Positions 44,653 to 61,676 of a DNA stretch of 64,000 nucleotides are shown here, piece by piece. The notes under the pieces were generated by a model, which had not been told where the DNA came from, did not search any database, and saw only the letters and a program-made list of their open reading frames with translations. The stretch lies in the NCBI RefSeq assembly GCF_001413955.1, contig NZ_LCTZ01000002.1:3699501-3763500 (forward strand), read 5' to 3'. The position numbers and the translations under genes were made by a program. The DNA comes from Flagellimonas eckloniae. Lineage in GTDB: Bacteria > Bacteroidota > Bacteroidia > Flavobacteriales > Flavobacteriaceae. Numbering within the stretch: the first letter of the stretch is position 1; each line of letters starts with the position of its first letter.

Positions 44653-44712
44653 TACTGTTTTATACTTAACAATTAATTATGTTTTTGCACAACTATAAAT
44701 GTGCCCAGGAGA

Positions 44713-44743
44713 TTGTTAATTGCTCCACTTTTTCGTAATTTTG
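44713..44743 (+). promoter_or_regulatory. Promoter of gltA
   Basis: TTG at 44713-44715 and TAATTTTG at 44736-44743 are 20 bases apart, fitting the Bacteroidota consensus. GCACCC follows the -7 box directly. The leader is about 29 bases. Confidence 0.75.
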
Positions 44744-44777
44744 CACCCTCTATTTTGTTAATCTTTTAAACCATACA

Positions 44778-46061: not shown

Positions 46062-46085
46062 GGAAAGATCCCCAAACCATATTAG

Positions 46086-46117
46086 AAAGGCGATTTTTTT
46101 AGAATCGTCTTTTTTTT
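46086..46117 (+). terminator. Terminator of gltA
   Basis: A 10-bp stem with one G-T pair, AAAGGCGATT (46086-46095) with AATCGTCTTT (46103-46112), followed by T to 46117. The stop of the convergent hypothetical gene is only 2 bases further on, so both genes may use it. Confidence 0.85.
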
Positions 46118-46118
46118 G

Positions 46119-46586
46119 CTAAAACTTTTCGGGGTTACCTTTTAAATTCACATTTAAGGATTTATCCATTGTATAGCATAGTTCCATTGCTTTAATATGG
46201 TAATATTGTTTTATTTCTGAAGTATTTTCCTTTTGAATCAAGCCTTTACTTTTTTCATATTCACTGTGCAGGAACTCGTGGGCATCAATGGTATTTAAAT
46301 TTTGGATAGTGGAGTCCAATGAACGTTGGTATTTTTCCAAACTTAAATTCAGTTCCTCAAAAATTCCTTGATATTCATCAGTATAATCTTCCAATTTTGG
46401 ATTCGAACGGGCTAAAAAATCAGCATCATTTATACAGTCTACATATTTTTTGGAATAATCCAGTCCATCACTTTTTTTTGAGTTTAACGACTTGGAAAAA
46501 GACAGCATATTAGGGAAAAGATTCTCAACGGTAAAACCCAAAACAATTAAAACGATCAAACTGAAAAGGAAAGTGTTTTTTTTCAT
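46119..46586 (-). CDS. Hypothetical membrane-anchored protein
   Basis: 155 residues from the ATG at 46586, chosen because a basic-hydrophobic signal anchor (K-K-N-T-F-L-F-S-L-I-V-L-I-V-L-G-F) follows directly; a frame extension to 46637 adds 17 residues ahead of the anchor. The rest is helical and charged, with two Cys (in V-D-C-I-N and E-L-C-Y). No family is recognised. It is a single gene converging on gltA. Confidence 0.65.
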   Translation of the reverse strand: MKKNTFLFSLIVLIVLGFTVENLFPNMLSFSKSLNSKKSDGLDYSKKYVDCINDADFLARSNPKLEDYTDEYQGIFEELNLSLEKYQRSLDSTIQNLNTIDAHEFLHSEYEKSKGLIQKENTSEIKQYYHIKAMELCYTMDKSLNVNLKGNPEKF

Positions 46587-46795
46587 CTTTACGTTTTTTC
46601 TTATTTTAAATGTAGTAATTAATTTATATAATTTCACACTTAAATATTGAATTTTTTTATAACTATATTGATTTTAAACATTTGAAAATCAAACAATTAA
46701 AAATGTAATAGTAAAATCCATAAAGGATGGTAAAATGCCTTAATAAAACTGATATTTTTTCTATTTAACTAAATGGAAAATCGTTGGCAAAGCAT

Positions 46796-46803
46796 TAGAT
46801 TTG
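46796..46803 (+). promoter_or_regulatory. -7 box before the pentein hydrolase pair
   Basis: TAGATTTG matches TAnnTTTG. It lies 71 bases before the ATG at 46874. A TTG at 46784-46786 is too close to be the -33 box, so only one element supports it. The remainder of the 287-base gap before the hydrolase gene is AT-rich without further signals I can name. Confidence 0.5.
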
Positions 46804-46873
46804 CCATACAATTTTTGAGGATTTCCTCCAGTTCAAGGTATTTTATTGCCCCTTACCAATGAAGTAATCATAT

Positions 46874-47788
46874 ATGATGCAATTGCATATTTTAAATGAA
46901 ACAGACCCTCTCAAAGCGGTCATTTTAGGTACAGCCAAAAGTTGTGGGCCAGTACCAAAACCTGAAGAAGCTTATGACCCTAAATCTTTGGAGCATATTC
47001 TAGCGGGCACATATCCTAAGGAAGAAGATATGGTAAACGAAATGGAAGCGTTTGCAAGAGTGTTCCAAAAGTATGGAGTTGAAGTATTTAGGCCTTCAAT
47101 TTTGGAGAATTGTAATCAGATTTTCTCTAGGGACATTGCATTTGTCATTGAGGATAAATTATTTCACTCCAATATATTGCCCGATCGTGAAAAGGAATTT
47201 GATGCCATTCAACATATTTTGGATAAAATGGACCCAACTAAGATTGTCCGCCCTCCCGAAGAAGTGCATATAGAAGGAGGTGATGTCATGCCATGGAACG
47301 AATACATTTTTATTGGCACCTACACGGGTAAAGACTATCCCGATTTAATAACAGCTAGGACCAACAAGGAGGCGGTGGAATACATAAAGGCACAATTTCC
47401 GCATAAAAAAGTAAAATCCTTTGAACTCCGAAAATCAAATACAATTGCAAAAGATAATGCCTTGCACCTTGATTGTTGTTTTCAGCCGGTAGGGAGGAAT
47501 AAGGCAATTTTGCATAAAAATGGATTTTTAATTGAGGAAGAATACCAATGGCTCGTTGATTATTTTGGGAAGGACAACATATTTGAAATTACAAAAGATG
47601 AGATGTATCAGATGTTCAGCAATGTATTTTCCATTTCCCCAGAAGTTGTTGTTTCAGAAAAAAACTTTACTCGTTTAAACAATTGGCTACGTGAAAATGG
47701 CTTTGTGGTAGAGGAAGTTCCGTATGCGGAGATTGCCAAACAAGAAGGTCTTCTACGCTGTAGTACTTTACCGTTAATTAGAGCATAA
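46874..47788 (+). CDS. Amidinotransferase / dimethylarginine dimethylaminohydrolase-like protein
   Basis: 304 residues of the pentein fold that acts on guanidino compounds. Likely catalytic residues are the Glu/Asp of H-I-E-G-G-D-V-M near 135-142, the His of N-A-L-H-L-D-C-C near 195, and the terminal Cys in L-L-R-C-S-T-L-P-L near 296. Possible reactions are arginine deimination, methylarginine hydrolysis or amidino transfer; sequence alone does not separate them. ATGs at 46874 and 46877 are both possible. The ctlX gene follows after 12 bases, so the pair probably works in one pathway of arginine/citrulline breakdown. Confidence 0.82.
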   Translation: MMQLHILNETDPLKAVILGTAKSCGPVPKPEEAYDPKSLEHILAGTYPKEEDMVNEMEAFARVFQKYGVEVFRPSILENCNQIFSRDIAFVIEDKLFHSNILPDREKEFDAIQHILDKMDPTKIVRPPEEVHIEGGDVMPWNEYIFIGTYTGKDYPDLITARTNKEAVEYIKAQFPHKKVKSFELRKSNTIAKDNALHLDCCFQPVGRNKAILHKNGFLIEEEYQWLVDYFGKDNIFEITKDEMYQMFSNVFSISPEVVVSEKNFTRLNNWLRENGFVVEEVPYAEIAKQEGLLRCSTLPLIRA

Positions 47789-47800
47789 AAAATCGTTTCA

Positions 47801-48730
47801 ATGCAAGTTACCAACACAATTTTAATGATTAGGCCTGTCAATTTCAGAATGAATGAGCAGACGGCAGTGAACAATTACTTTCAAGAGGAGTTGAACATAA
47901 AGAATGATGAAGTCAATGGTAAGGCCCAGAAAGAGTTTGATGATTTCGTGGCCAAGCTAAGAGACCATGGTGTGAATGTTATTGTGGTGGACGATAAAAA
48001 GGAAACGGATACCCCAGATTCCATCTTCCCTAATAATTGGATATCATTCCATGATAGCGGAACCGTATGTGTGTATCCCATGTTTGCCGAGAACCGAAGA
48101 AAGGAGCGGAGGGAGGATATTTTTGATACATTGGAAGAACATGGTTTTCGCGTAGATACTATTGTGGATTATACCGGTGCTGAGGAAGAAGGTATTTTTT
48201 TGGAAGGAACCGGTAGTATTTTAAAGGACAGGGTTAACCAGAAAGCATACTGCGCACTATCCGAACGTGCCCACGAAGAGCTTTTTATTGAGTTTTGTGA
48301 AGATTTTGATTGTTTTCCGGTACTATTTACTGCTAACCAGACCGTGGACGGGAAACGCTTGCCCATTTACCACACCAATGTAATGATGGCCATGGCCGAA
48401 ACGTTTGCAGTAATCTGTTCCAGTACAATTGATGATAAAAAAGAGCGTAAAAATGTGCTTGAACATCTTAAAAAAGACGGTAGGGAAATTATTACCATTT
48501 CAGAAGAGCAGATGTATCAGTTTGCTGGTAATATGCTTCAAGTTATAGGTGCCAATGACCAACGTTTTATGGTAATGAGCTCAGCGGCATTTAAAAGCCT
48601 GAATCAAACCCAAATTGATGCTATTGAAAAGCACTGCCAAATTATTCACAGTCCTTTGGATACGATTGAAACTTGTGGCGGAGGTAGTGCCCGTTGCATG
48701 ATGGCAGAGGTTTTTTTACCCAAGAATTAG
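47801..48730 (+). CDS. ctlX: Citrulline utilization hydrolase CtlX
   Basis: 309 residues. Pentein-fold protein with F-P-N-N-W-I-S-F near 75, L-E-G-T-G-S near 140, the His of Y-H-T-N-V-M-M near 190 and the C-terminal Cys in C-G-G-G-S-A-R-C-M-M-A-E near 293-301, the pattern annotated as CtlX. The family is linked to use of citrulline as an intermediate in arginine or ornithine catabolism. It is second in a two-gene unit with the amidinotransferase-like gene and converges on the BCCT gene. Confidence 0.85.
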   Translation: MQVTNTILMIRPVNFRMNEQTAVNNYFQEELNIKNDEVNGKAQKEFDDFVAKLRDHGVNVIVVDDKKETDTPDSIFPNNWISFHDSGTVCVYPMFAENRRKERREDIFDTLEEHGFRVDTIVDYTGAEEEGIFLEGTGSILKDRVNQKAYCALSERAHEELFIEFCEDFDCFPVLFTANQTVDGKRLPIYHTNVMMAMAETFAVICSSTIDDKKERKNVLEHLKKDGREIITISEEQMYQFAGNMLQVIGANDQRFMVMSSAAFKSLNQTQIDAIEKHCQIIHSPLDTIETCGGGSARCMMAEVFLPKN

Positions 48731-48758
48731 GTTGTTTTCCCTAACTTGAATCAGGGTC

Positions 48759-50168
48759 TCACTTTTTGAAATTCCACAAAAAAATAGCTCCCATTGCAAC
48801 CATAAAAAATGCAAAAGGGAGAGAGGTGATAATCAATAGTTTTTGCACCGCTTCGAGCACATTTATTTCTGGCTTTGCGTTACCCAATAAAATGATGGCC
48901 AATGTAGCCAACAGAATAAGAATTGACCATACTAACCGATGTTTTTTTTGTGGTTTAGGGTTCCCGTTATCTGTGAACATACTCAACACAAAAACCGCTG
49001 AATCTACTGAGGTGACCAAAAAACTTACCAATAACAGAATGGTGATACTATTTAATACTGAAGGTATGGGATAGTGTTCAAAAAACACAAAGATGGAGGA
49101 AAACACATTTCCAAATTCGTTGTTATAGCTACCCCAACTTTCGATGACCTCAAATGCGGAAGTACCAAACACAGAAAACCAAAAAAAAGTACCCAACGAA
49201 GGTAAAATCAATACACCCAATAGCATTTGTCGCAATGTTCGCCCTCTTGAGATACGGGCAATAAAAATCCCTGTGAAAGGCGCCCATGCGAGCCAAAAAG
49301 CCCAATAATAAAAGGTCCAATCCGTTAGAAAATCAATACCGGGATTATAGCTGCCTATAGCAAGACTCATGGGAATAAAGTCAATGATATAGTGTAGGGA
49401 TGCCTTTCCGAAGGAAAGAAGAATTTCACCCATATTACTGGTTATAAAAACAAAACCCAGTAAAACCAGGGTCACCAGAATATTGAATTTTGAAATCTGT
49501 TTTATACCCTTGTCCACACCCAACCAAACTGAAATAAAGGCAATGACAGAGATAAGAATTGCCAGAAGTAGGGTGACGGAGACTCCTAAATCTACTTGAA
49601 ACACATGATTAAGCCCGCCTGTAATTTGGGCCGTACCCAAACCCACAGCTGCGATAAGTCCAAAAACAGTAGTGATGATAGCCAAAATGTCTATGGTATT
49701 GGCTCGTTTCTTTCCCTTGAACTTTTCTGGAATGGAACTGCTTACCAATACTTTTTTGTGTTTTACAAATAATGCATGACCTATAACCAAAGCAAATAGT
49801 CCATAAAAGGCCCATGCCGTAAAACCCCATTGGTAAAAAGTAAATTCCAACGCCAAAATTTCATTGGAACTGTTGGAAGGAAATGGAGGATTTTGCTGCA
49901 TAAAAACAGGTTCCTGTACCGCGCGTAGCAAAATACCGGCTCCCATTCCCGTACTATAGAGCATGCTGGCCCATGCCCAAGAAGAATGTTCAGGTTTTTC
50001 TTCTGGCCCACCCAATTTGAGTTTACCCCATGGTGAAAAGGCAATACCCAATAGTAAAAGCACACAACCCAGACCTAAATAGAGGTAGAAATATCCAAAA
50101 TAAGTTCGTACCCAAAGCGATAGCTCTTCTATACTGCGGTAACTCGCTTCCGTAAAAAAGAAAACCAA
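48759..50168 (-). CDS. BCCT-family transporter, 5' end apparently disrupted
   Basis: Twelve-helix transporter of betaine, choline or carnitine type. The signature helix reads W-A-F-W-L-A-W-A-P-F-T-G-I-F-I-A-R-I-S-R-G-R-T, and W-A-W-A-S-M-L-Y-S-T-G-M-G-A-G precedes it. Some Trp of the aromatic substrate box are present, so an osmolyte substrate is likely. Here 469 residues are given from a TTG at 50168, which cuts through the first membrane helix. The frame stays open upstream to 50265, encoding the rest of that helix, but contains no ATG, GTG or TTG at a sensible place. An ATG at 50265 is out of frame by one base. Confidence 0.8.
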   Translation of the reverse strand: MVFFFTEASYRSIEELSLWVRTYFGYFYLYLGLGCVLLLLGIAFSPWGKLKLGGPEEKPEHSSWAWASMLYSTGMGAGILLRAVQEPVFMQQNPPFPSNSSNEILALEFTFYQWGFTAWAFYGLFALVIGHALFVKHKKVLVSSSIPEKFKGKKRANTIDILAIITTVFGLIAAVGLGTAQITGGLNHVFQVDLGVSVTLLLAILISVIAFISVWLGVDKGIKQISKFNILVTLVLLGFVFITSNMGEILLSFGKASLHYIIDFIPMSLAIGSYNPGIDFLTDWTFYYWAFWLAWAPFTGIFIARISRGRTLRQMLLGVLILPSLGTFFWFSVFGTSAFEVIESWGSYNNEFGNVFSSIFVFFEHYPIPSVLNSITILLLVSFLVTSVDSAVFVLSMFTDNGNPKPQKKHRLVWSILILLATLAIILLGNAKPEINVLEAVQKLLIITSLPFAFFMVAMGAIFLWNFKK

Positions 50169-50265
50169 TACTGAAAAAAGCAGTAGGGTTCCCGTGGAGA
50201 TTGATAGTAGTTTATTATGTTTTAGGAAATTAAAGATGGCTTTTAGTTTTAAAACTCTTTGTCAT
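50169..50265 (-). other. Presumed 5' part of the BCCT gene, split off by a one-base shift
   Basis: From the ATG at 50265 the frame reads M-T-K-S-F-K-T-K then S-H-L and stops. Removing one base from the T4 run at 50241-50244 joins it to A-I-F-N-F-L-K-H-N-K and the full first helix of the transporter. Either the gene is frameshifted here, or the run length is a sequencing error, or an unusual start codon is used. Confidence 0.55.
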
Positions 50266-50374
50266 TTCGAAGGTACTGAGAAATCTTAATTTATGTCATT
50301 TCGAGCGCAATCGAGAAATCCATGAGTTGTTTTGATTTCTCAATCAATGCTTTGCATTTCATTTCGAAATGAAA
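50261..50374. repeat. REP-like repeat cluster (two direct copies and an inverted remnant)
   Basis: GTCATTTCGA...GAGAAATC occurs at 50261-50285 and, better conserved, at 50295-50320 (core GAGCGCAATC). The unit can fold into a hairpin, ATTTCGA against TCGAGAAAT with one bulge. At 50334-50374 an inverted, diverged copy begins GATTTCTC and ends in the perfect palindrome TTTCATTTCGAAATGAAA (50357-50374). From memory, units like this are dispersed in flavobacterial genomes. Confidence 0.65.
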
Positions 50375-50400
50375 AGTTGGTTGTTGAAAAGTGACAATAA

Positions 50401-51891
50401 TCACTCCCCTTCAACTACAAACTCGCGTATGGCTTTGTTGGGTTCCATAATGGTATAGCCTTTCCAAAACTCTGGATTATAAGAAGATAGATAGGTGGCT
50501 TTTACGGTTTCATCTTCTTCCAAAGCTTCAAAATTGGTTTTGGGCACCGCATTTGAATCAAAAACTACAAATTCAAATTTTTCGGTATTGTAGTTAATGA
50601 TATCCAAGGCAAGGGACAATTCATTTTGTTTTCTTCGACCCTTTACATATTTGTTCTTTTCAATCACTTTTAAAGGTCTGTCCACACCCATTTTTCGGCC
50701 AAAAGTGAGGTTCATGAATTTAAGATCGTACGTGTTTTTTCCATGCTTGGAAAAAACGGTACTACCCGTATATTTCTGTTCACGATAGCTAAAACCAAGC
50801 AGTTTAATGCTACGTAGCGGTTTTACATTTTCATAATCCATCCGTATAATGGCAAAATCCTCAATATTTATAAAAAGTTGTCCTTTAAAATCAGCTCCGC
50901 CTTTTGGCACAAACCCTATGACGTATACGCCTTGATTTTCAAGCTCGGAATACCCCAACAGTTCATATTCATACCGATTCAGCTTTTTGGCTACATCCAA
51001 TTTGGACTTTTTTCCAAAAAATTGGGAATGGATTTCTTTCAACACATATTTGCGGTTGCTTAGAAAATCATTTTTCTTCGGTTTGTCAAATTCCTCTTCC
51101 AACGCCTCGGCATCTTCCTCAGCGTCAAAAATGGAATCCAATTGTACCTTTTCCCCAAAAATGCCCGATTTTATCTTTAGATAAGAATCTGGTTTTACAT
51201 TGGCCTTAAATATAGCCTCCATTTTATCGGAAAGCGCCTCCATGGAACCTTCGTTGCTTTTATCATACAATTCCGCCGCTTTTATGATTTCCAATTTGTT
51301 TTCCTCGCCATTTTTGTAATAATCTCCTAAGGTTTCTGTATAGTAGGATGCGCTTTTGGGAAGGATGGTAATAATACTATCAATCAACTTTTTGTTCAAT
51401 TCTTCAATCGTAGATTTCTTAAATTCTATGTCCAACCGCTGCATGGTATTGAAACTGGATTGTCTTAAAAAAAATCGTTGTTTTAAGGGTTCTTTGTTAT
51501 AATTATAAGGAAGTCGCTCTTCAACACGCTCCATGATTTCGTCCACACTTAGTTCTTTATCAAAAAGGCAGACTCCACTTAGCTCGATTGCCTTTGGATT
51601 TATAGGAATAATACTGTCTTGCAATTGTTGCAGCGTAAAACCTCTTTTTTCATAACCCATTGAGGTTATATAAATGGAATCCAAACTAACAGCTCCCTCA
51701 TCTATAACAAAACTAAAACGTCCTTCCTCATTGGTAATAACCCCTTGGTGTTCCCCATATTGAATTGTTGCATAGGGAATGCCTTTTTGCGTTTTGGCAT
51801 CCACTAATTTGGAGCTAACGGTTTGTGCGGTCAGGGAATGACATAGTACCAAAAAGAGGCAGAAAGTAAGTAAAGGCTTTAGTAAAGACAT
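50401..51891 (-). CDS. Exported protein with CarboxypepD_reg-like N-domain
   Basis: 496 residues. A signal peptide ends at L-T-A-Q (about 23). A carboxypeptidase regulatory-like domain follows (V-D-A-K-T-Q-K-G-I-P-Y-A-T-I, then G-V-I-T-N-E-E-G-R-F-S-F). The long C-terminal part has I-G-F-V-P-K-G-G-A-D-F-K-G-Q-L-F-I-N-I-E-D-F-A-I, a pattern of beta-rich outer-membrane-associated Bacteroidota proteins. An acidic stretch (D-A-E-E-D-A-E-A-L-E-E-E) lies near 255. Function unknown. Single-gene unit. Confidence 0.78.
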   Translation of the reverse strand: MSLLKPLLTFCLFLVLCHSLTAQTVSSKLVDAKTQKGIPYATIQYGEHQGVITNEEGRFSFVIDEGAVSLDSIYITSMGYEKRGFTLQQLQDSIIPINPKAIELSGVCLFDKELSVDEIMERVEERLPYNYNKEPLKQRFFLRQSSFNTMQRLDIEFKKSTIEELNKKLIDSIITILPKSASYYTETLGDYYKNGEENKLEIIKAAELYDKSNEGSMEALSDKMEAIFKANVKPDSYLKIKSGIFGEKVQLDSIFDAEEDAEALEEEFDKPKKNDFLSNRKYVLKEIHSQFFGKKSKLDVAKKLNRYEYELLGYSELENQGVYVIGFVPKGGADFKGQLFINIEDFAIIRMDYENVKPLRSIKLLGFSYREQKYTGSTVFSKHGKNTYDLKFMNLTFGRKMGVDRPLKVIEKNKYVKGRRKQNELSLALDIINYNTEKFEFVVFDSNAVPKTNFEALEEDETVKATYLSSYNPEFWKGYTIMEPNKAIREFVVEGE

Positions 51892-52031
51892 GGATTTATT
51901 TTTATACTATTCTCTTTTACAAAGACAACATAAATGGTAAAAAGGTTGCTTTTGAATAGACGAATGTTAAATGGATTTGTAACAAGGATTGTTCCATAGG
52001 TGGGTTTTTTACAGATTCTAGTGTATATGGG

Positions 52032-52496
52032 TTATAAATCTTCAATAGAAGTTGGCGCATTGTCCGCTTTATAATCCAGTAACTTTCTAAAGAACTTTTG
52101 TATGGCTTTAGTGTCTGATTTTACCTTAATATAGTAGTTGTCCAGGTAAATGGAATACACTGCAAAATCTCCTTTATAAATTGTGAGTTTGTAATAGGGT
52201 ATAATCAATCCATAAGTTTCCAGCAAAGACCTAAACCGAACTATGATACCTTTTGGACGCATCTCAATATTACATGTATTGAGGTTATTGTCCAAAATGA
52301 GTAGGTTTTGGATTTCCAAACTAGTTTCCGTAATAAACAACTTTGGGGAGCCAATTCCACCTAGTGCAAAACGTTCTTTTAATGTAAAAGGCTTGCCTAC
52401 GGCTTCATCAATTTTTTTGGTGACTTTTTTGTCTGAATAAGAAACATTGAGTAGCATTTTCAAAATTAGCCAAAATGATCTCATGAATTTGCACAA
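52032..52496 (-). CDS. Hypothetical protein, possibly PH-like
   Basis: 154 residues, with a second Met at residue 5. After a hydrophobic start (F-W-L-I-L-K-M-L-L-N-V) the chain alternates strands (I-G-S-P-K-L-F-I-T-E-T-S-L-E-I, G-I-I-V-R-F-R-S-L, Y-Y-K-L-T-I-Y-K-G-D-F-A-V-Y) and ends in a helix, reminiscent of a bacterial PH domain. No motif is decisive. It is divergent from argS with 66 bases between starts. Confidence 0.6.
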   Translation of the reverse strand: MCKFMRSFWLILKMLLNVSYSDKKVTKKIDEAVGKPFTLKERFALGGIGSPKLFITETSLEIQNLLILDNNLNTCNIEMRPKGIIVRFRSLLETYGLIIPYYKLTIYKGDFAVYSIYLDNYYIKVKSDTKAIQKFFRKLLDYKADNAPTSIEDL

Positions 52497-52532
52497 GGCG
52501 TATTAAACTAGTCATAAAGCCTAAAAAATATG

Positions 52533-52540
52533 TAGTTTTG
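52533..52540 (+). promoter_or_regulatory. -7 box of argS
   Basis: TAGTTTTG matches TAnnTTTG and is followed by CACCC as in gltA. It lies 23 bases before the argS ATG, so the leader is about 15 bases. No clear -33 TTTG. Confidence 0.65.
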
Positions 52541-52562
52541 CACCCTTAAATGCAGTTTATTA

Positions 52563-54689
52563 ATGAATATTGAACAGGTACTTACAACTACAGTCAAAGC
52601 AGCTGTTTCCTCAATTTTTAATGCAGAACTACCTTCGGTAGAATTTCAGCCAACTCGCAAAGATTTTGAAGGCGATGTTACCGTGGTGGTGTTTCCCATG
52701 CTACGAGTGGTAAAAGGGAATCCTATGGAAATTGGAACAAAGATTGGCGAGTATTTGCAAGAAAATGTGGATGAAGTTTCAAAGTTCAATGTAGTCAAGG
52801 GCTTTTTGAATGTAGTTATTGAAGATAGTTTTTATCTGAATTTTTTCAATTCTATGTATAATGAAGCAGACTTTGGATATGTAAAAACACCTTCCAAAGA
52901 TGCCGTGATGGTAGAGTATTCCTCTCCAAATACTAATAAACCGTTGCATTTAGGGCATATTCGAAACAATCTTTTAGGGTACTCTGTTGCTGAAATCCTT
53001 AAGGCTGCAGGGAAAAAAGTATACAAGACACAGATTATCAACGACCGCGGTATTCATATCTGCAAAAGTATGTTGGCCTGGAAGAAGTTTGGAAATGGAG
53101 AGACCCCGGAGTCTTCTGGTCTGAAAGGAGATCATTTGGTGGGAAAATATTATGTGAGATATAATACCGAGTATGAAAATGAACGTATTCGACTAATTGA
53201 TTTAGCCGAAAAAGCATACGAAGAATTTAAAAACCCAAAACCTTCCCCAGAAATTGCTCCTTTCAAAACTATTGTTGAGTCTAGCACAAGTGTTAAATTC
53301 AATAAGAATATTTTTTGGGCGCTCGGAGGTTTGGCACTTGCAAGCTATTTGTACAAAAAGGGAAGAAAGGATGATGATTCAAATCTTAGAATACTTGGCG
53401 ATTTGACCTCATTGGCGACTGGAGTTTTGGCACTGAAATCAGTAGATTTCAAAAAAGACTATGAGTTAGAATATCAAAAAATTGAAAAATCTTTTCTATC
53501 GAATCCAAAGAGAATTGAAAAGTACGAAAAAAAGGGAAAGAGAGAGTTTATTAAAGATTATGTTGAGGAAAACAAGGGGTATACACCAATTTTAAATGAA
53601 GCCCAAGAAATGCTTCGCAAATGGGAGGATGGAGATTCTGAAACTGTTGCACTTTGGAAAAAAATGAACGGTTGGGTATATGAGGGATTTGATACTACCT
53701 ACAAAAATTTGGGTGTCGATTTTGATACGTTGTACTATGAAAGCGTTACCTATCTTTTAGGAAGGGATGTTGTACAAGAAGGACTTGAAAAAGGGATTTT
53801 CTTTAAAAAGGACGATGGTAGTGTCTGGATAGATTTGACAGATGAGGGATTGGATGAAAAAATTGTACTCCGCTCAGATGGTACTGCCGTTTATATGACC
53901 CAAGATATAGGAACTGCCATTCAGCGGGTAACGGATTTTCCAGACATTAATGGAATGGTATATACGGTTGGGAATGAACAAGACTATCATTTTAAGGTCT
54001 TGTTTTTGATTCTCAAAAAGCTGGGATATGGTTGGGCGGAACAATTGTATCATTTGAGTTATGGTATGGTGGACCTGCCAAGCGGTAAAATGAAGAGTAG
54101 GGAGGGTACCGTTGTTGATGCAGATGATTTGATTGATAATATGACCCAAACTGCAGAAAAGATTTCTGAAGAACTTGGTAAGTTGGATGGATATTCGGAT
54201 GAAGAAAAACAAGGCCTTTATAGAACCATTGGTTTAGGCGCGCTTAAATACTATATTCTAAAAGTAGATCCTAAAAAACGAATCTTGTTCAACCCAGAAG
54301 AATCTGTCGATTTTCAAGGGAATACAGGGCCTTTCATTCAATACACTTATGCACGGATTCAGTCCATTCTACGAAAAGCAGAAGGCGTGCAATCCAGCGC
54401 AATTGAGACCTCGTTAAAACTGCATCAAAAGGAAAAGGAATTGCTCAAACAGCTTCAGCTTTTCCCGGAAACCGTTCAATTGGCTGCAGAAAATTACAGC
54501 CCAGCGCTGATAGCTAATTACACGTATGATTTGGTCAAAGAATTTAACTCTTTCTACCAACAAGTTCCTATTTTGCCTGAAACTGAAGCACTGAAAAAAC
54601 AGTTTAGAGTACAATTGTCCAGAAAAGTTGGAGAGGTAATTCAATCAGCATTCTTATTGTTGGGCATCAATGTACCTGAACGAATGTAA
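52563..54689 (+). CDS. argS: Arginyl-tRNA synthetase with a large hydrophobic insertion
   Basis: 708 residues; flavobacterial ArgS is about 590. The enzyme charges tRNA-Arg. The class I HIGH motif is H-L-G-H at 129-132 after S-P-N-T-N-K-P, the KMSKS counterpart is G-K-M-K-S-R-E-G near 509-516, and the C-terminal DALR domain ends F-L-L-L-G-I-N-V-P-E-R-M. Between K-Y-Y-V (195-198) and N-E-A-Q-E-M-L (345-351), where relatives have about 35 residues, lie about 145. The extra part holds hydrophobic segments at about 250-264 and 275-293 with a basic-acidic turn between, then a Lys/Glu-rich helix. The frame is intact. Its stop overlaps the start of the peptidase gene. Confidence 0.93.
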   Translation: MNIEQVLTTTVKAAVSSIFNAELPSVEFQPTRKDFEGDVTVVVFPMLRVVKGNPMEIGTKIGEYLQENVDEVSKFNVVKGFLNVVIEDSFYLNFFNSMYNEADFGYVKTPSKDAVMVEYSSPNTNKPLHLGHIRNNLLGYSVAEILKAAGKKVYKTQIINDRGIHICKSMLAWKKFGNGETPESSGLKGDHLVGKYYVRYNTEYENERIRLIDLAEKAYEEFKNPKPSPEIAPFKTIVESSTSVKFNKNIFWALGGLALASYLYKKGRKDDDSNLRILGDLTSLATGVLALKSVDFKKDYELEYQKIEKSFLSNPKRIEKYEKKGKREFIKDYVEENKGYTPILNEAQEMLRKWEDGDSETVALWKKMNGWVYEGFDTTYKNLGVDFDTLYYESVTYLLGRDVVQEGLEKGIFFKKDDGSVWIDLTDEGLDEKIVLRSDGTAVYMTQDIGTAIQRVTDFPDINGMVYTVGNEQDYHFKVLFLILKKLGYGWAEQLYHLSYGMVDLPSGKMKSREGTVVDADDLIDNMTQTAEKISEELGKLDGYSDEEKQGLYRTIGLGALKYYILKVDPKKRILFNPEESVDFQGNTGPFIQYTYARIQSILRKAEGVQSSAIETSLKLHQKEKELLKQLQLFPETVQLAAENYSPALIANYTYDLVKEFNSFYQQVPILPETEALKKQFRVQLSRKVGEVIQSAFLLLGINVPERM
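53187..53537 (+). other. In-frame insertion within argS encoding two hydrophobic segments
   Basis: Approximate limits, residues 209-325, set by comparison from memory with ArgS of other flavobacteria. Segments I-F-W-A-L-G-G-L-A-L-A-S-Y-L-Y and L-G-D-L-T-S-L-A-T-G-V-L-A-L could form a membrane hairpin. There are no intein end residues, no terminal repeats and no change of frame. The insertion is in the catalytic-domain region after the HIGH motif. Confidence 0.7.
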
Positions 54690-55540
54690 TGGAGGAATTT
54701 GGAGGCTTGTCCGAGACAGAGAGACAGATTGCTGCGCTTGTTTTGGCAGTTGGTCTGCTTTATGTGTTTGCGAGGGTAGGCTATGTGTATTTTTTTGGTG
54801 AAAGGTTTACGTTTTACAATGTTTTTCATCCAGTTAAGAGAATTACGGCCAAGGAACGACAATTTATAAGTGAGTTTCTTATTCCTTTTCAACACTTTAA
54901 TGCTGAACAGAAACGAACTTTTTTAAAGCGATTCGCTTGGTTCAAATCCAAAAAAGCTTTTGTTTTTTATAATGGAATAACCAATACTGAAAAAATAAAG
55001 GCCTATGTTTCTGCTTCCGCTGCTCTGTTGACCATGGGAATGCGGGATTTTAGGTATGAAAAATCAATTTCAAGAATCATCATTTATCCCAATACATATT
55101 ACTCACGCATTCGGAAAAACCATCATATTGGAGAATTTAATCCGAACTTAAAGATATTGGTGTTTTCGGCTGAGGACCTTGAAAAAGGATTTAAAATTCC
55201 AAATGATAACCGAAATCTGGGTATCCATGAGGTGGCTCATGCGTTGATGTTTGAAATGAGAAATAAATCCAGTTGGGAAGCAAGAAGGTTTAAAGTGGGT
55301 TTGGCACAAATAAAAAGAATCTATGACCAAAAGGATTTCCAGAAAAAGTTGGAGGAATCAACGTATTTTAGGACATATGCCAAGTCTAATTTCTATGAGT
55401 TTTTCGCGGTTATTATGGAAAATTTTATAGAGAGTTCATCCGAGTTTTCGAATAAATTCCCTGATTTGTACGACATCCTCAGAAGAATGTTGAATTTTGA
55501 CCTCAATAAACCGTTGTGGAGGCTTAAAAATTTACCCTAA
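54689..55540 (+). CDS. MtfA-like zinc-dependent peptidase, membrane-anchored
   Basis: 283 residues. A hydrophobic anchor occupies about 15-36 (A-A-L-V-L-A-V-G-L-L-Y-V-F). The peptidase core has H-E-V-A-H-A-L near residue 178-184 (HExxH zinc motif) and downstream E-F-F-A-V-I-M-E-N-F with the third ligand, as in the MtfA/M90 family. E. coli MtfA is soluble and binds the Mlc repressor of glucose uptake; here the protein is membrane-bound and its target is unknown. It overlaps argS by one base (TAATG), so the two are translated in a coupled way. Confidence 0.85.
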   Translation: MEEFGGLSETERQIAALVLAVGLLYVFARVGYVYFFGERFTFYNVFHPVKRITAKERQFISEFLIPFQHFNAEQKRTFLKRFAWFKSKKAFVFYNGITNTEKIKAYVSASAALLTMGMRDFRYEKSISRIIIYPNTYYSRIRKNHHIGEFNPNLKILVFSAEDLEKGFKIPNDNRNLGIHEVAHALMFEMRNKSSWEARRFKVGLAQIKRIYDQKDFQKKLEESTYFRTYAKSNFYEFFAVIMENFIESSSEFSNKFPDLYDILRRMLNFDLNKPLWRLKNLP

Positions 55541-55609
55541 ACTTATATTAAAGGTAATAGAGTTTTCAATCCATACTTAAAGTTTTAGGGATTCATGTTC
55601 CTGAGAAGT

Positions 55610-55644
55610 TGTAAAAAAAGGCCATGTTCGCAAACATGGCCTTT
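55610..55644 (-). terminator. Terminator of the proteorhodopsin gene, probably bidirectional
   Basis: A 12-bp perfect stem, AAAGGCCATGTT (55617-55628) with AACATGGCCTTT (55633-55644), loop CGCA. On the minus strand it is followed by seven or more T, a strong terminator for the rhodopsin gene; on the plus strand the T-run is weaker but could serve the peptidase gene. Confidence 0.9.
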
Positions 55645-55664
55645 CTTAACAACCAACTAAAAAT

Positions 55665-56393
55665 CTATGAATCGGAATTGGCCGTAACCGCTAGGTTGTA
55701 AACAACCAGTCCAAATCCAATTTTGTTAATAGCATCACCAATGTTATAAACTACATCCAATGATAGACCACCAAAAATACCGTCATACCAGCCTGGTGTT
55801 CCTGCCATATATCCGATAGGATAGATTGCCCAACCTACCAATACAAACCAACATAGCGTTTTGTGTGCACTGAGAACAGCACCACCTGCTTCTTGAGCCA
55901 GTTTTTTGGCGCCACCAAACCATATTTCATAAACAATGGCAAAGTAAGCGATACCGGAAATAAGACCCCATATTTGGGCTTGGTCTCTATAAACTGCTTC
56001 TCCAAGATATCCGGTGACGAGCATAACTACAGATAGAATAATCAGTTTCCACATTAGAGATTTTTTTGCCCCTGCAACTTTAAGAATAAGGTAAAATTCA
56101 ACGCACATCAAAGGAACCGTAAGAATCCAGTCCACATAACGGAAGAATGTAGGAGATTCTCCGTTCGCAGCCCAATAATCGCGCATGTACCAATAATGTA
56201 CTGCGGCAATAAAAGTTATTAATCCTGACACTAGGATTGAGGTCTTCCATTTTCTATCAAAATTGTTCATTGATAAAAAGAAAAAGGCAGAAGCTGCCAT
56301 CATGGCCATGCAACCTACAAAAAAGGTAAAGCCAACATAATCATTCGTAGCAATTTTAGCTACCATGGGTAAAGAAGTGAATAAACTTTCCAT
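55665..56393 (-). CDS. Proteorhodopsin, proton-pumping, green-tuned
   Basis: 242 residues with seven helices. The motif R-Y-V-D-W-I-L-T-V-P-L-M-C-V-E gives Asp88 (acceptor), Thr92 and Glu99 (donor), the DTE set of outward proton pumps. Met96 is at the spectral-tuning position; Met or Leu there absorbs green light, Gln blue. Lys224 in I-N-K-I-G-F-G binds retinal as a Schiff base, and His66 matches the His that pairs with the acceptor. It turns light into proton motive force in the inner membrane. Retinal comes from Blh, encoded divergently 86 bases away. The carotenoid genes are not in the window. Confidence 0.97.
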   Translation of the reverse strand: MESLFTSLPMVAKIATNDYVGFTFFVGCMAMMAASAFFFLSMNNFDRKWKTSILVSGLITFIAAVHYWYMRDYWAANGESPTFFRYVDWILTVPLMCVEFYLILKVAGAKKSLMWKLIILSVVMLVTGYLGEAVYRDQAQIWGLISGIAYFAIVYEIWFGGAKKLAQEAGGAVLSAHKTLCWFVLVGWAIYPIGYMAGTPGWYDGIFGGLSLDVVYNIGDAINKIGFGLVVYNLAVTANSDS

Positions 56394-56423
56394 TTTATTT
56401 TGTGTTAATTAATTTTGTTTAAT

Positions 56424-56431
56424 CAAATCTA
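56424..56431 (-). promoter_or_regulatory. -7 box of proteorhodopsin
   Basis: On the minus strand TAGATTTG matches TAnnTTTG. It is 30 bases before the ATG, giving a leader of about 24 bases. No good -33 box at the usual spacing. Confidence 0.65.
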
Positions 56432-56454
56432 TTAAAAATTAAACAAAAAAATGA

Positions 56455-56462
56455 TAAATTTG
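56455..56462 (+). promoter_or_regulatory. -7 box of blh
   Basis: TAAATTTG matches TAnnTTTG. Transcription would start near 56468, leaving only about 10 bases before the ATG at 56480. The two divergent -7 boxes are 23 bases apart, so one bound regulator or polymerase could affect both genes. Confidence 0.65.
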
Positions 56463-56479
56463 TTTATTATTTTTTGAGA

Positions 56480-57382
56480 ATGATTAAACAAAAGGATTTA
56501 AATTTTGTCAAATTGAGAAATGTAATGATAGTGATGACCATTTTTGCTCTATGGTTTTCAGTATTCTTTAGTGAACAGATTGAGGGGTATATTTCTTATG
56601 CTTTAATTTTTAGTTTTGGTATTCTTCATGGATCAAATGATATTCAGTTAATCCATATAAATGCAATGCGAAGTGCTGGAAAAGTATCTAGGAAAAAGGT
56701 TTTTCTATTATATGTTTCTACAGTCTTGGCCATACTGCTGACATTTTCTTTTTTTCCTAGGGTGGCATTTATTTTCTTCATTATAATAAGTGGATTTCAC
56801 TTTGGTGAACAGCATTGGAATAAATACTTAATAAAAAAAACTGTATGGAACAAGCTTTTGTACACACTGTATGGCTTGTTTATTTTGTTTATGATCTTTT
56901 ATATAAAGTATGAACAAGCATCACAAGTCATAAACGATATTTCTGGATTTCAATTCCAAGAAGATGTATATCTAACAATAACAAGTGTTATTGGCATTGC
57001 CCTGATCATACAGCTAAGCTTTTATTTATATTTTGATTTTTTGAAAGTCAGTATTTTAGAAGAACTCTTTTTCCTAGGAATCTTTTTTATAATATTTAAG
57101 ACTGCTTCATTGCTTTGGGGTTTTTGTGTGTATTTCATTGTATGGCATAGTATTCCATCATTAGTGGACCAAATGAATTATTTATACGGTATATCCAATA
57201 AGTGGACGTTGCTGCAATACCTGAAGTCTTCCTGGAAATATTGGTTGATATCGCTTATTGGGTTATTTGGACTATATTTTCTTTTAAAAGAGGACAATCA
57301 GTTTTTTGCTTCAATAATGCTCTATTTTTTAGCCGCGATCACTTTTCCCCATGTAATTGTAATGTCCAGATTAGAAAAATAA
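56480..57382 (+). CDS. blh: Beta-carotene 15,15'-dioxygenase, Brp/Blh family
   Basis: 300 residues from the ATG at 56480; a TTG two codons upstream is less likely. The enzyme splits beta-carotene into two retinal molecules in the membrane. The conserved His set for iron is visible: H-G-S-N-D near 51, H-F-G-E-Q-H near 108-113, W-H-S-I-P near 222 and F-P-H-V-I near 291. About eight hydrophobic helices are seen. It stands back to back with proteorhodopsin; its stop abuts that of the next gene with no bases between. Confidence 0.95.
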   Translation: MIKQKDLNFVKLRNVMIVMTIFALWFSVFFSEQIEGYISYALIFSFGILHGSNDIQLIHINAMRSAGKVSRKKVFLLYVSTVLAILLTFSFFPRVAFIFFIIISGFHFGEQHWNKYLIKKTVWNKLLYTLYGLFILFMIFYIKYEQASQVINDISGFQFQEDVYLTITSVIGIALIIQLSFYLYFDFLKVSILEELFFLGIFFIIFKTASLLWGFCVYFIVWHSIPSLVDQMNYLYGISNKWTLLQYLKSSWKYWLISLIGLFGLYFLLKEDNQFFASIMLYFLAAITFPHVIVMSRLEK

Positions 57383-59938
57383 TCAAAAACTAACCCTAAA
57401 ACTCACATTTGGGGTAATACCTAAAGAAACATTCTCAACGGTTTCAATTTCATTGGTATCTGAAAGCCTGTAATAACGATTAAGCAAATTTTCACGATTT
57501 GTAAGGTTGAGCAATGAAATACCGGCATTTGCCTTAACCCTTCTGCCCATATCAAATCCGTATGAAGCCGAAGCATCCATCCTAACATATTCTGGCAATC
57601 GGCTGCTGTTTGGAGTTTCATAATTAATTCTTGCAGGAAAAAATGAAGTGTCCAATGGATTATCCGCTTCAGGTTTGGTAAAAGGTTTACCAGTACGATA
57701 ATTTATTCCGAGACCCAACTTAAGGTCTTTGATGCTATAGGTGCTTGCAAAAGTTAAGGTATGCCTTACATCCAGATTATTTGGAAAAGAATTTGGGGTG
57801 ATATTTGTAAAGTTATAATCGTTCTTATTGAAGGTATAACTAAACCATGTACTATAATTATCCCCTTTTTTGTTGATTAGAAACTCAATCCCCTTTACGT
57901 CATAGTTTCCTATTTCACCCCCAAATTGATTTTCGTTCTGAAAACCTTGGGTTCTTATACTGATGCCATCAACGTATTTATAAAAGCCTTCAAGGCCGAT
58001 GTAAAGGGCATTTTTCGAGTAATTAAGGCCTAAGGATCCTTGTTTGCTTTTGGTGATGGGCAATTCATTTCCATCAGAAATAATCCACCTCCTTTTTTCA
58101 ATACCTAAAAAATTCTGTTCCAGATCTATGACCTGATTGGTGGACTGACTTTTAAATTCACCTAAAATTTCAGCTCTCAGATATTTGGCTACTCTAAAAT
58201 TTAGGTTCAACCTGGGCTCTATCAACAGTTCATTAAAGGTGGCCAGATTTTCAATATAATTTACCCGAACGCCTGCTCTTGCAATAAATTTATTTTCTTC
58301 AGCAGTATAGCCAATTTCAGTGTAGGGTGCATGAATTCTAATGACACCTGTAATATTGCTCAAGAAATTTGGTTGACTGATTTGGGTGAAGTTTTTAATA
58401 CCCGTTTCAATAAATTGATAGCCATTGGTCCAGTCTAGATTTTCTGAAATGGTATAGTTGGTATCTATTTTGAGTGCATTTTCGGTGACTCTATTATTTT
58501 GAAATAGAGTTTGAACTTGGTTGCCAAACAAGCTTTGGGCGTCTAGGTTATATTTGGTGTAATAAATATTAAGGTTGGAAGAAAACTTGTCTGTCCAATT
58601 GCTTTGCAATCGAATTCCTCCAGAAATATTGGTCTGATCTAATAAACTGAGCGTGGTTTCATCAATATCCAGATTTGTTTCGGTGAATTCCAAATCATTG
58701 GCGATGGTAATAAAATTGAAACGTAGTTGATGTTTGTCATTGATATCGTACAATAATTTTCCTGAGAAATCATAAAAGAAGAAGGTCTCATCTCGCTGAA
58801 AGTTTTCATCAATGGTTTGGTTCTGTTGATTTTTAACTTCACTATCCTGAAAGGCCCTGTCCGTAAAATTATTATAGGTAGGCGTATTTAGAAAATCGGT
58901 TGTTGAACGGCGTGCAGAAAATTGAAATGCCATGTTATCTTTTATGGGAATTTGGCCATAGACATCGCCACTTATAAAATTGATGCCAGCTCCTCCTGTA
59001 AAGAAGCCATCAATATCGTTTTTCGTTTCCATACTAATAACACTACTAACGCCATCGCCATATTGTGTGGGCGTTCCGTTTTTGAAAACAGTCACTTTAT
59101 CAGTTAAATAGGGGTTGAACGCCGAAATAAGGCCAAAAAAGTGTCCGGATTGATACATTTTTATGCCATTCCAAAGAATAAGATTTTGGTCGTTTGTTCC
59201 TCCGCGCACGTTTATGTCCGAGACAGTTTCATCGATGCTCTTGATGCCCGGCAACGCTTGGACTGTTTGCAAAACATCAGGTTCCACAAGCCCTGGGAGT
59301 ATACCCAATTCATAAGTATTTAGGGTAATGCTGGCATCTGTTTGTTTAATGATTCCGGGAGCTAAAAACTCATACAAAACCACCTCTTCAAGCTGCTCAT
59401 AATTTTGCGCCAAAAGAATCTTGGGGCAATCGTTTCGAGCAATCAAACTCTCTACAGGAACATATTTGGTAACATAGCCTAAAAAACGAATCCTTATCAA
59501 TGCTTCCCTAGGAATATCGCGGAGTGAAAAAAGGCCTTCAGAATCTGTTACAAGAGCAATTTCACTTCCCACAACCTCCACGGATGCCGCTGAAACAGTA
59601 TTTTCGGCAAAATTGTCAAGCACTTTTGCACAAATATCAACTAGAGTGCTTTTGACCAAGGTATAGTAACGTTCGTTGAGCTTTTCTATTTTTATCTGGG
59701 TCTGAGCGCGAATGGATTCTAGAATACCTTGTAACGAATTGGAAACAGGAGTTGAGATTTCAACCTTTTCCAAATCTTCATCAACATAAGAAAATTTGAT
59801 ATCAAATCTTTTTTCCAGTCCGGTGAGATAGGATTTTAGATCTGTTTGGATCTCTTGGGCATAACAGAGGTTGATGGATATAGGTAAAAGCAACCCAACC
59901 CAAACTAGTATAATAAAACTACGGAGTGTCCTCAGCAT
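57383..59938 (-). CDS. TonB-dependent receptor with STN domain (FecA-like, partner of FecR)
   Basis: 851 residues from the ATG at 59938, chosen because a good signal peptide follows (F-I-I-L-V-W-V-G-L-L-L, ending Y-A-Q); a start at 59959 adds seven residues. STN domain at about 35-100 (L-E-K-R-F-D-I-K-F-S-Y), CarboxypepD_reg-like domain, plug with I-N-V-R-G-G-T-N-D-Q-N-L-I-L-W, and a barrel ending in V-S-F-R-V-S-F. The STN domain signals to FecR in the periplasm when ligand binds. It overlaps the FecR gene by about 20 bases. Ligand unknown. Confidence 0.9.
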   Translation of the reverse strand: MLRTLRSFIILVWVGLLLPISINLCYAQEIQTDLKSYLTGLEKRFDIKFSYVDEDLEKVEISTPVSNSLQGILESIRAQTQIKIEKLNERYYTLVKSTLVDICAKVLDNFAENTVSAASVEVVGSEIALVTDSEGLFSLRDIPREALIRIRFLGYVTKYVPVESLIARNDCPKILLAQNYEQLEEVVLYEFLAPGIIKQTDASITLNTYELGILPGLVEPDVLQTVQALPGIKSIDETVSDINVRGGTNDQNLILWNGIKMYQSGHFFGLISAFNPYLTDKVTVFKNGTPTQYGDGVSSVISMETKNDIDGFFTGGAGINFISGDVYGQIPIKDNMAFQFSARRSTTDFLNTPTYNNFTDRAFQDSEVKNQQNQTIDENFQRDETFFFYDFSGKLLYDINDKHQLRFNFITIANDLEFTETNLDIDETTLSLLDQTNISGGIRLQSNWTDKFSSNLNIYYTKYNLDAQSLFGNQVQTLFQNNRVTENALKIDTNYTISENLDWTNGYQFIETGIKNFTQISQPNFLSNITGVIRIHAPYTEIGYTAEENKFIARAGVRVNYIENLATFNELLIEPRLNLNFRVAKYLRAEILGEFKSQSTNQVIDLEQNFLGIEKRRWIISDGNELPITKSKQGSLGLNYSKNALYIGLEGFYKYVDGISIRTQGFQNENQFGGEIGNYDVKGIEFLINKKGDNYSTWFSYTFNKNDYNFTNITPNSFPNNLDVRHTLTFASTYSIKDLKLGLGINYRTGKPFTKPEADNPLDTSFFPARINYETPNSSRLPEYVRMDASASYGFDMGRRVKANAGISLLNLTNRENLLNRYYRLSDTNEIETVENVSLGITPNVSFRVSF

Positions 59939-60830
59939 AGAAAAGCACGTTATCCTCACCTAATTTATAATTAATCTGTGAAGGAATGCTTATACTTTCT
60001 AACGCTAATTTTATGCTGTTGTTGTTAAATGTTCCTGTGAACAACTGTTCAGCATCTATATTTTTGGTTTTAACTTCAATGTTAAATTGTCTTTCAAATT
60101 CAGCCAATACATATTTTAAAGGGATACTTTGAAAGCTACTTTCATTGCTCATCCACGAAGGTTGGGCAATCGTAATATTGTCAAAATCTTGAATTTTACC
60201 ATTTATGGCCACAAAAGATGTGCCCGCTGGCAATTTTCGTTCAATGTTATTGTAGGTTACACTTACGAGGCCCTCGTAGCAGGTTACCTCAAAGAAACCA
60301 TTTCTGTTTTCCACGTTAAATTGGGTCCCCAATACAGCAACAGTGCCATTTTCAGTAGAAACAGTGAATTTTTTTCCTTTGGCCACTTTAAAAAATGCCT
60401 CACCTTCTAAGTTCACATTTCTTTTTTCTGACCATTTTTTCTCACTAAATGAGACTTTGGAATCCGCATTCAGTATAATTTCAGAATTATCAGGAAGCAA
60501 AACCTCAGAACGTTCGGCCAATTGTGTACTAAAGGATTCATTAAGACTATTTAGATAGAAATAAGAACCCGAGAGCAATACCGCAACAACAGCGGCAACC
60601 CGCAAGAATTGCTTAAATGGATTTAACGTAATAACCTTAGGCGTTTCTTCAGAACCTCTATTTTTAAAGGTGTTCCAAGCTTGGTCAACATCAAATTCAG
60701 GAGTTTTTAAAGTTCCTGAAACCTCCTTCAATTTCTGATAAGAAGCATAGCTTTCGGACTTTTTGAATTCCGTAAGCTCTTCCTCAGAAAGTTCTCCGTT
60801 AAGCCATTTGGCCAAGTAATTTTCTTGCAT
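59919..60830 (-). CDS. FecR-family anti-sigma factor
   Basis: 303 residues. An N-terminal cytoplasmic domain (about 1-70, L-A-K-W-L-N-G-E-L-S-E-E-E) precedes a single membrane helix (about 75-92) and a periplasmic FecR domain with L-P-D-N-S-E-I-I-L-N-A-D-S-K-V and L-E-G-E-A-F-F-K-V; a short C-terminal secretin-like piece (V-L-A-E-F-E-R-Q-F-N-I-E-V) contacts the receptor STN domain. It keeps the ECF sigma in check until the receptor signals. The sigma gene is upstream across a 234-base gap filled by heptamer repeats. Confidence 0.92.
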   Translation of the reverse strand: MQENYLAKWLNGELSEEELTEFKKSESYASYQKLKEVSGTLKTPEFDVDQAWNTFKNRGSEETPKVITLNPFKQFLRVAAVVAVLLSGSYFYLNSLNESFSTQLAERSEVLLPDNSEIILNADSKVSFSEKKWSEKRNVNLEGEAFFKVAKGKKFTVSTENGTVAVLGTQFNVENRNGFFEVTCYEGLVSVTYNNIERKLPAGTSFVAINGKIQDFDNITIAQPSWMSNESSFQSIPLKYVLAEFERQFNIEVKTKNIDAEQLFTGTFNNNSIKLALESISIPSQINYKLGEDNVLFYAEDTP

Positions 60831-60906
60831 GATTTCTATGCTTTACACCATAATAACAATTAAGTACTATAAAACCCTACTTTTCAGTTTACAATTAACA
60901 ATTTTA

Positions 60907-60955
60907 CAGTTATCAGTTATCAGTTATCAGTTATCAGTTATCAGTTATCAGTTAT
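60907..60955. repeat. Tandem heptamer array, CAGTTAT x7
   Basis: Seven exact head-to-tail copies of CAGTTAT, followed by a decayed CGGTT. It lies in the gap between the sigma stop and the FecR start, about 77 bases before FecR. Confidence 0.95.
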
Positions 60956-60984
60956 CGGTTGTTGATTTTTTATTTTAATAGCTT

Positions 60985-61562
<578 letters not shown>

Positions 61563-61584
61563 TTAAGTTGGTTTGTCAAAGCCC

Positions 61585-61592
61585 CAAAGATA
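61585..61592 (-). promoter_or_regulatory. -7 box of the ECF sigma gene
   Basis: On the minus strand TATCTTTG matches TAnnTTTG, 22 bases before the ATG. No -33 box was found at the usual distance. Confidence 0.55.
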
Positions 61593-61676
61593 TTTTAAAA
61601 ATTTTTAAGAAGAAGTAGGGTTTTTTTTTTGAAAGTTGTTTTAGAGTTGTGGAATAACTAAAAAATCCAAATCGCT

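Follow-up and report, generated by a model that had tools for sequence, protein, structure and literature searches.

Apparently unrelated cassettes at one loop of arginyl-tRNA synthetase in Flavobacteriaceae: a probable site of domain exchange

Few enzymes are as conserved and essential as the aminoacyl-tRNA synthetases, and argS is an essential gene. The arginyl-tRNA synthetase (ArgS) encoded in the window, the whole stretch of 64,000 nucleotides of Flagellimonas eckloniae DNA analyzed here, carries a long extra segment with two hydrophobic stretches. This raises the question of what the segment is, how it came to lie in such an enzyme, and whether it tethers the enzyme to a membrane, as a preliminary description of the DNA had suggested.

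The ArgS loop in the window and in its nearest relative

The argS frame is open throughout, and its product scored 427.8 bits against TIGR00456, the curated argS equivalog model (cut-off 261.65), which places it within this family. HLGH and GKMKSREGT were found by reading, so that the intact frame and the catalytic motifs of the preliminary description held. As the gene is present in a single copy and its motifs are intact, the enzyme presumably still serves as the cell's sole ArgRS. The extra segment occupies the surface loop running from GDHLVGKYYV to EAQEML, which is flanked by the HLGH and GKMKS motifs and hence separates the halves of the catalytic domain. This loop comprises 147 residues in the window, compared with 31 in the nearest genome (G249). 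Exactly 31 residues were found in 74 of the 82 fetched loci with a readable loop, so that the loop does not generally drift in length. In an alignment of 200 ArgS, gaps of at least 14 residues relative to the sister protein occurred only at sister residues 200-229, and the three gaps outside this region measured 12-13 residues; because the set had been gathered partly for the loop, it shows the place of insertions and not their frequency.

G249 is collinear with the window over 19 kb at about 95% identity, and the ArgS loop is the sole break. The blastn alignment blocks on either side (43596-53155 at 95.7% and 53586-63003 at 94.1% identity) leave 430 nt of the window and 82 nt of G249 unaligned. 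The insertion is therefore real, and only the limits first assigned to it (53187-53537) were slightly narrow, since the stretch that does not align to the sister genome extends beyond them on both sides (Table 1). Approximately 0.8 Mb of each genome was also compared for ortholog lengths. Among 480 reciprocal-best ortholog pairs (at least 120 residues, identity at least 70%, median 97.4%), only argS differed in internal length by at least 20 residues. The clean breakpoint against G249, the isolated position of argS among these pairs and the recurrence of the cassette elsewhere rule out chance or artefact, and an assembly oddity is excluded because at least 11 further database proteins have the same cassette. 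The two genomes thus differ by one cassette within 19 kb of otherwise nearly identical DNA, which makes the question directly testable. One further gene among the pairs showed a divergent internal stretch, of 29 versus 20 residues; it lies on contig C2 of the window genome at about 64482-65963 (b2_142884) and encodes a protein of 493 residues with a signal-like start.

Table 1. Coordinates of argS and of the parts of its cassette in the window
Feature	Position	Strand	Basis or remark
argS, arginine--tRNA ligase, 708 aa	52563..54689	+	only ArgS match in genome
Type A cassette, about residues 199-341, replaces 82 nt of G249 loop	53156..53585	+	blastn breakpoints 53155/53586
Stalk helix, residues 189-223, starts in conserved part	53127..53231	+	AlphaFold
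Predicted strand, residues 234-246	53262..53300	+	AlphaFold, pLDDT about 53-71
Apolar helix 1, residues 249-270	53307..53372	+	AlphaFold, alignment, apolarity score
Apolar helix 2, residues 273-292	53379..53438	+	AlphaFold, alignment, apolarity score
Predicted strand, residues 294-306	53442..53480	+	AlphaFold, pLDDT about 49-66
Return helix, residues 326-340	53538..53582	+	AlphaFold

The cassette of the window, designated type A, was modeled with AlphaFold together with the rest of the enzyme (42 sequences, mean pLDDT 88). The model places the two apolar helices (pLDDT about 82-89) between two strands of low confidence (about 49-71), and the cassette would accordingly take the form of a helical stalk bearing a head with two apolar helices. 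The hydrophobic stretches lie where the preliminary description had placed them, as the highest Kyte-Doolittle averages over 15 residues begin at residues 250 (1.52) and 277 (1.65). When the whole model was used as query in Foldseek and VIA-align, the matches displayed were synthetases only. The apolar helices share a short direct DNA repeat (53318-53338 and 53414-53434, 21 nt, 81%), and a counterpart occurs in a Tenacibaculum argS (locus L080, 5174-5192 and 5264-5282, 19 nt, 89%). The hairpin thus looks as if it had been born by duplication.

Cassettes at the loop in related genomes

A search scored on the loop matched 7871 proteins, and type A cassettes were present in 11 of the best 120 (P0001-P0011), with 24-45% identity to that of the window. 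Including the latter, 12 distinct type A sequences are available. The paired hydrophobic segment recurs in all 12, and most of them show the pattern N.N[ILV]..A..G..LA in apolar helix 1. A type A profile search of genome contigs returned one locus, a Tenacibaculum ArgS, and L080 is identical to P0005. Among 397 Flavobacteriaceae genomes the type A profile detected only the cassette of the window itself, besides one match dropped as chance (in G100, within what reads as a TPR histidine kinase). Type A is therefore rare in the family, which excludes that the segment is a soluble domain common to most flavobacterial ArgS. A putative second copy in the window's own genome (E 0.006, 29% identity) falls in a phytoene-synthase-like frame, by reading, and was likewise dropped as chance.

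Outside ArgS, type A has no relatives in the searches made. A 12-row profile was run against 2607 candidates of 0.55-1.75 times the query length and retrieved no free-standing protein at E ≤ 0.001. The cassette had no PDB match by sequence better than E 0.62 and no Rfam match up to E 1, and viral contigs contained no match for type A, type B, type E or the whole ArgS. A region of 651 bases surrounding the cassette of the window contained no inverted repeats.

Other ArgS harbor different cassettes in the same loop, classified as type B (P0012, P0014, L054), type C (P0031, P0039, L197), type D (L004), type E (L025, L053, L055) and type F (L056). With the shared ends trimmed, BLAST at E 0.01 kept type A separate from B, C, D, E and F and linked B with E except for P0014, which was assigned to type B by eye and profile. 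The hhalign comparisons of A with B, E, F, D and C gave probabilities of at most 0.4%, and those of B with E 9% or 12%. The type E profile matched type F along the entire cassette (E 0.001). At E ≤ 0.01 it matched in 13 of the 397 genomes; these matches comprised two type E ArgS, the full-length ArgS cassette of G255 (E 0.001) and otherwise weak partial hits. When a type E protein was searched by its loop, the single protein recovered was 99% identical to it. The cassette of P0038, which is apolar like type A and reaches 7.7% in hhalign, may represent a distant member of that type. At weaker thresholds some short loops were linked with other loops as well, such as P0005-P0013 at E 0.007. Judged by these comparisons, cassettes of unrelated sequence occupy one ArgS site (B/E/F, C and D versus A). 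In length, the cassettes of five types (A, B, D, E and F) cluster at 132-154 residues.

The stalks look alike in types A and E while the heads differ. The AlphaFold model of a type E ArgS (33 sequences, mean pLDDT 84) comprises a stalk helix at residues 188-223, an all-helical head with pLDDT of about 52-85 and a return helix at 316-333, and the heads of both models are of limited confidence.

Carriers are scattered. All 71 genomes of the genus possess ArgS, and three have long cassettes (G000, the window genome, type A; G446, type E; G012, type D). In the family, ArgS was matched in 390 of 397 genomes, five with long cassettes (G000, type A; G416 and G074, type E; G149, type B; G255, type F); the single matches in G132 and G406 are partial genes. 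In the phylum, ArgS was matched in 293 of 296 genomes and only G000 had a long cassette in one match, as judged from 73 matches of the same class that were strong enough, the other 220 being too weak to judge the loop. These frequencies are lower bounds because the single-match criterion misses medium cassettes. Of 12 further loci with long open frames that were read directly, five had loops of 67-88 residues; these five (L197, L199, L200, L201 and L207) are ArgS of other genera and families. L199 weakly resembles L207 in its medium loop, and L200 and L201 have C-like cassettes (E about 0.001 to L197).

The loop thus holds nothing or unrelated domains in relatives and resembles a socket that swaps modules between species. 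Replacement, site specificity, patchiness and unrelated heads are supported by the data, and we consider an exchange of accessory domains of some kind at this loop highly probable (about 0.9).

Possible membrane tethering and likeness to known systems

CAAD, a domain of about 100 residues, occurs in class I aminoacyl-tRNA synthetases of cyanobacteria, among them ArgRS (PMC4893482). It is a known membrane domain of these enzymes. By analogy, the two apolar helices of type A might insert into the cytoplasmic membrane and anchor ArgS to it. In each of the 12 type A sequences, no segment outside the cassette is as apolar as the best one within it, type A scores fall within the range of the helices of the window's proteorhodopsin-like protein, and the modeled helices span 22 and 20 residues. 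However, on an insertion-energy scale with position weights of our own, the window segments are marginal (1.4 and 2.7), and a segment of the ArgS core (2.1) is better than the second helix. The usual Kyte-Doolittle threshold is 1.6, and the best 19-residue values for the two stretches were 0.77 and 1.09, compared with 1.07 elsewhere in the same protein. The low hydrophobic moment of the helices is not distinctive either, being equally low in some core helices. On the insertion-energy scale the values for types B, C, D, E and F are 4.2-8.0, and the remainder of each protein is more apolar than its cassette, although P0012 (1.49) and L004 (1.19) lie above the window by Kyte-Doolittle. As unrelated cassettes that are not apolar by insertion energy occupy the same site, a membrane role alone is insufficient to explain the loop. 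Tethering was thus not accepted as the whole story, and we regard it as unlikely even for type A, of which it is a possible property.

A sub-threshold resemblance to SLATT_1 (PF18181) counts in favor of tethering. SLATT_1 is a 2TM effector domain of nucleotide-signalling defence systems and shares with type A two apolar helices that follow a charged helix. It was matched in two of the 12 type A members (E 0.0074 and 0.11), and hhalign of type A against four SLATT sequences (L115 left out) gave 19%. The best match, at 16.8 bits, fell short of the cut-off of 26.3, and the window's cassette was not among the two. Inteins, which carry His-Asn at the C-terminal splice junction, resemble the cassettes in being foreign segments that sit in frame at one constant position within a conserved enzyme and are patchily distributed. 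Unlike an intein, the cassette substitutes for the loop rather than extending it, and the cassettes are mutually unrelated; the window cassette contains no histidine and therefore lacks the His-Asn end.

A close precedent is CAAD itself, which shares with the cassettes the patchy and recurrent in-frame capture of a domain of about 100 residues and, with type A, the paired apolar segment. The site is different, since the window cassette lies between the catalytic halves and CAAD is located elsewhere in ArgRS (PMC4893482). CAAD is also one domain that entered several synthetases, whereas here several unrelated domains entered one loop of one synthetase. CAAD was absent from the Pfam matches of the window cassette and L080 up to E 10, from those of ten type A members up to E 5 and from those of twelve up to E 0.1, with HMMER filters that drop most weak matches. 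Of the proposed tether by an insertion unrelated to CAAD, the paired hydrophobic segment, the missing CAAD match and the rarity in the family were borne out; the tethering itself was not, given the marginal apolar scores. As CAAD capture by several synthetases is known, the novelty of the locus is the exchange site and not the hydrophobic hairpin. One synthetase loop with several unrelated domains across species was not found described in our searches of open-access PubMed Central papers.

History and possible purpose of the proposed exchange

A quick tree of 119 loop-free ArgS sequences was computed with SH-aLRT support only; P0025, L012 and L017, missed by the motif pattern, were left out of it, and P0009 was absent from the first counts. 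Carriers pair with short-loop sisters in several places: the window with L026 (support 98), L025 with L045 (95), P0009 with P0016 (100) and P0013 with P0063 (100). A short-loop member, L089, lies inside one type A clade (100). Type A requires seven gains or losses, at least five of them forced by well-supported branches; shuffled labels gave a mean of 9.4 changes and values as low in 42 of 500 shuffles. For all cassette groups together 14 changes were counted against a shuffled mean of 13.7, so that the groups are neither more nor less clustered than shuffles. The type A cassettes share a mean identity of 36% compared with 72% in the core, and the two correlate (r = 0.79). Type C is different, as L197 matches P0031 and P0039 at 69% and 66% in the cassette and at 75% and 74% in the core. 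This similarity looks like transfer between lineages.

Composition was compared as GC3. All nine loops longer than 60 residues with DNA available had GC3 below that of the core, and eight of nine cassettes with DNA were below every 110-codon core window of the host gene. In 74 short loops the mean difference between loop and core was -0.05 (s.d. 0.09). The window cassette is only mildly AT-rich (GC3 0.29 versus 0.35 in the core); one of 91 core windows was as low, as were 15.7% of the 351-nt stretches of the window in GC. No clear imported tract was detected around the cassette in four pairs, where the near-minus-far divergence was reached by 72, 916, 828 and 1645 of 2000 rotations; the window pair alone (72) leans toward such a tract. 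A passage of PMC6491836 mentions an ICE close to an ArgRS gene, but no insertion in the gene itself. The low GC3 of most cassettes, the pairing of carriers with short-loop sisters and the likeness of type C count in favor of exchange. The mild AT-richness in the window, tree labels that behave like shuffles and the absence of a clear imported tract count against it, and the correlation of cassette and core identities also fits partly vertical descent.

According to the exchange explanation, the 31-residue hairpin tip would be replaced now and then, independently in several lineages, by an incoming cassette of about 65-155 residues, and the rest of the gene would stay with its lineage. The likely route would be recombination between the conserved DNA flanking the loop. 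As the most plausible purpose, the heads would alter or cover an ArgS surface that is recognized by something hostile, such as a phage protein or a competitor's toxin, such that new heads are favored and the plain loop returns once the pressure ends. This explanation as a whole, with exchange site, recombination route and conflict purpose, falls somewhat short of an even chance.

A neutral origin was considered, in which the hairpin tip tolerates insertions and the cassettes reflect drift and occasional DNA capture without function. It would account for insertions at one tolerant surface place, for cassettes that diverge faster than the core, and for the lack of a partner or known domain in the searches made (free-standing type A, Pfam, PDB by sequence). 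It is at odds with the invariant and near-invariant positions of type A across 12 distant copies, with the recurrence of the same cassette families in different genera and with the clustered lengths of five types, and we regard it as distinctly improbable. Purely vertical descent of ancestral cassettes that diverged and were lost repeatedly agrees with the correlated identities of type A and with L089 inside a clade of type A, but is very unlikely, since it leaves the several unrelated sequence families, the AT-rich composition of most cassettes and the likeness of type C across genera unexplained and requires almost every independent loss to have stopped at 31 residues.

Within the exchange explanation, the conflict purpose is suggested by unrelated heads that are rare and recently replaced at one place of an essential enzyme. 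The loop would then be a polymorphic recognition surface on which unrelated heads on a common stalk are traded between species, the selecting agent being an ArgRS-binding phage factor or toxin; we hold this to be possible but doubtful. No convincing attacker, partner or defence association emerged from PADLOC, PHROGs or viral contigs. PADLOC gave no match for six of seven cassettes and one at E 0.012 for the seventh, a single sequence. The best PHROGs values, likewise from single sequences, were E 0.0015 in one of 12 type A members and E 0.0062 in one of five others. If selection drives the exchange, some attacker or partner of ArgRS would still await discovery, and if the loop is indeed such a recognition surface, ArgS would be a front line of bacterial conflict.

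The neighborhood of argS was also inspected. The frame at 54689-55540 (+) overlaps the argS stop codon and begins with an N-terminal apolar segment (QIAALVLAVGLLYVFAR); by reading only, we take it to be an MtfA-type zinc peptidase. Next to argS lie a presumed proteorhodopsin-like protein at 55665-56393 (-) and, divergently oriented to it, a multi-pass membrane protein at 56474-57382 (+), which we assume to be Blh-like (retinal synthesis), both names being given by reading of the sequence.
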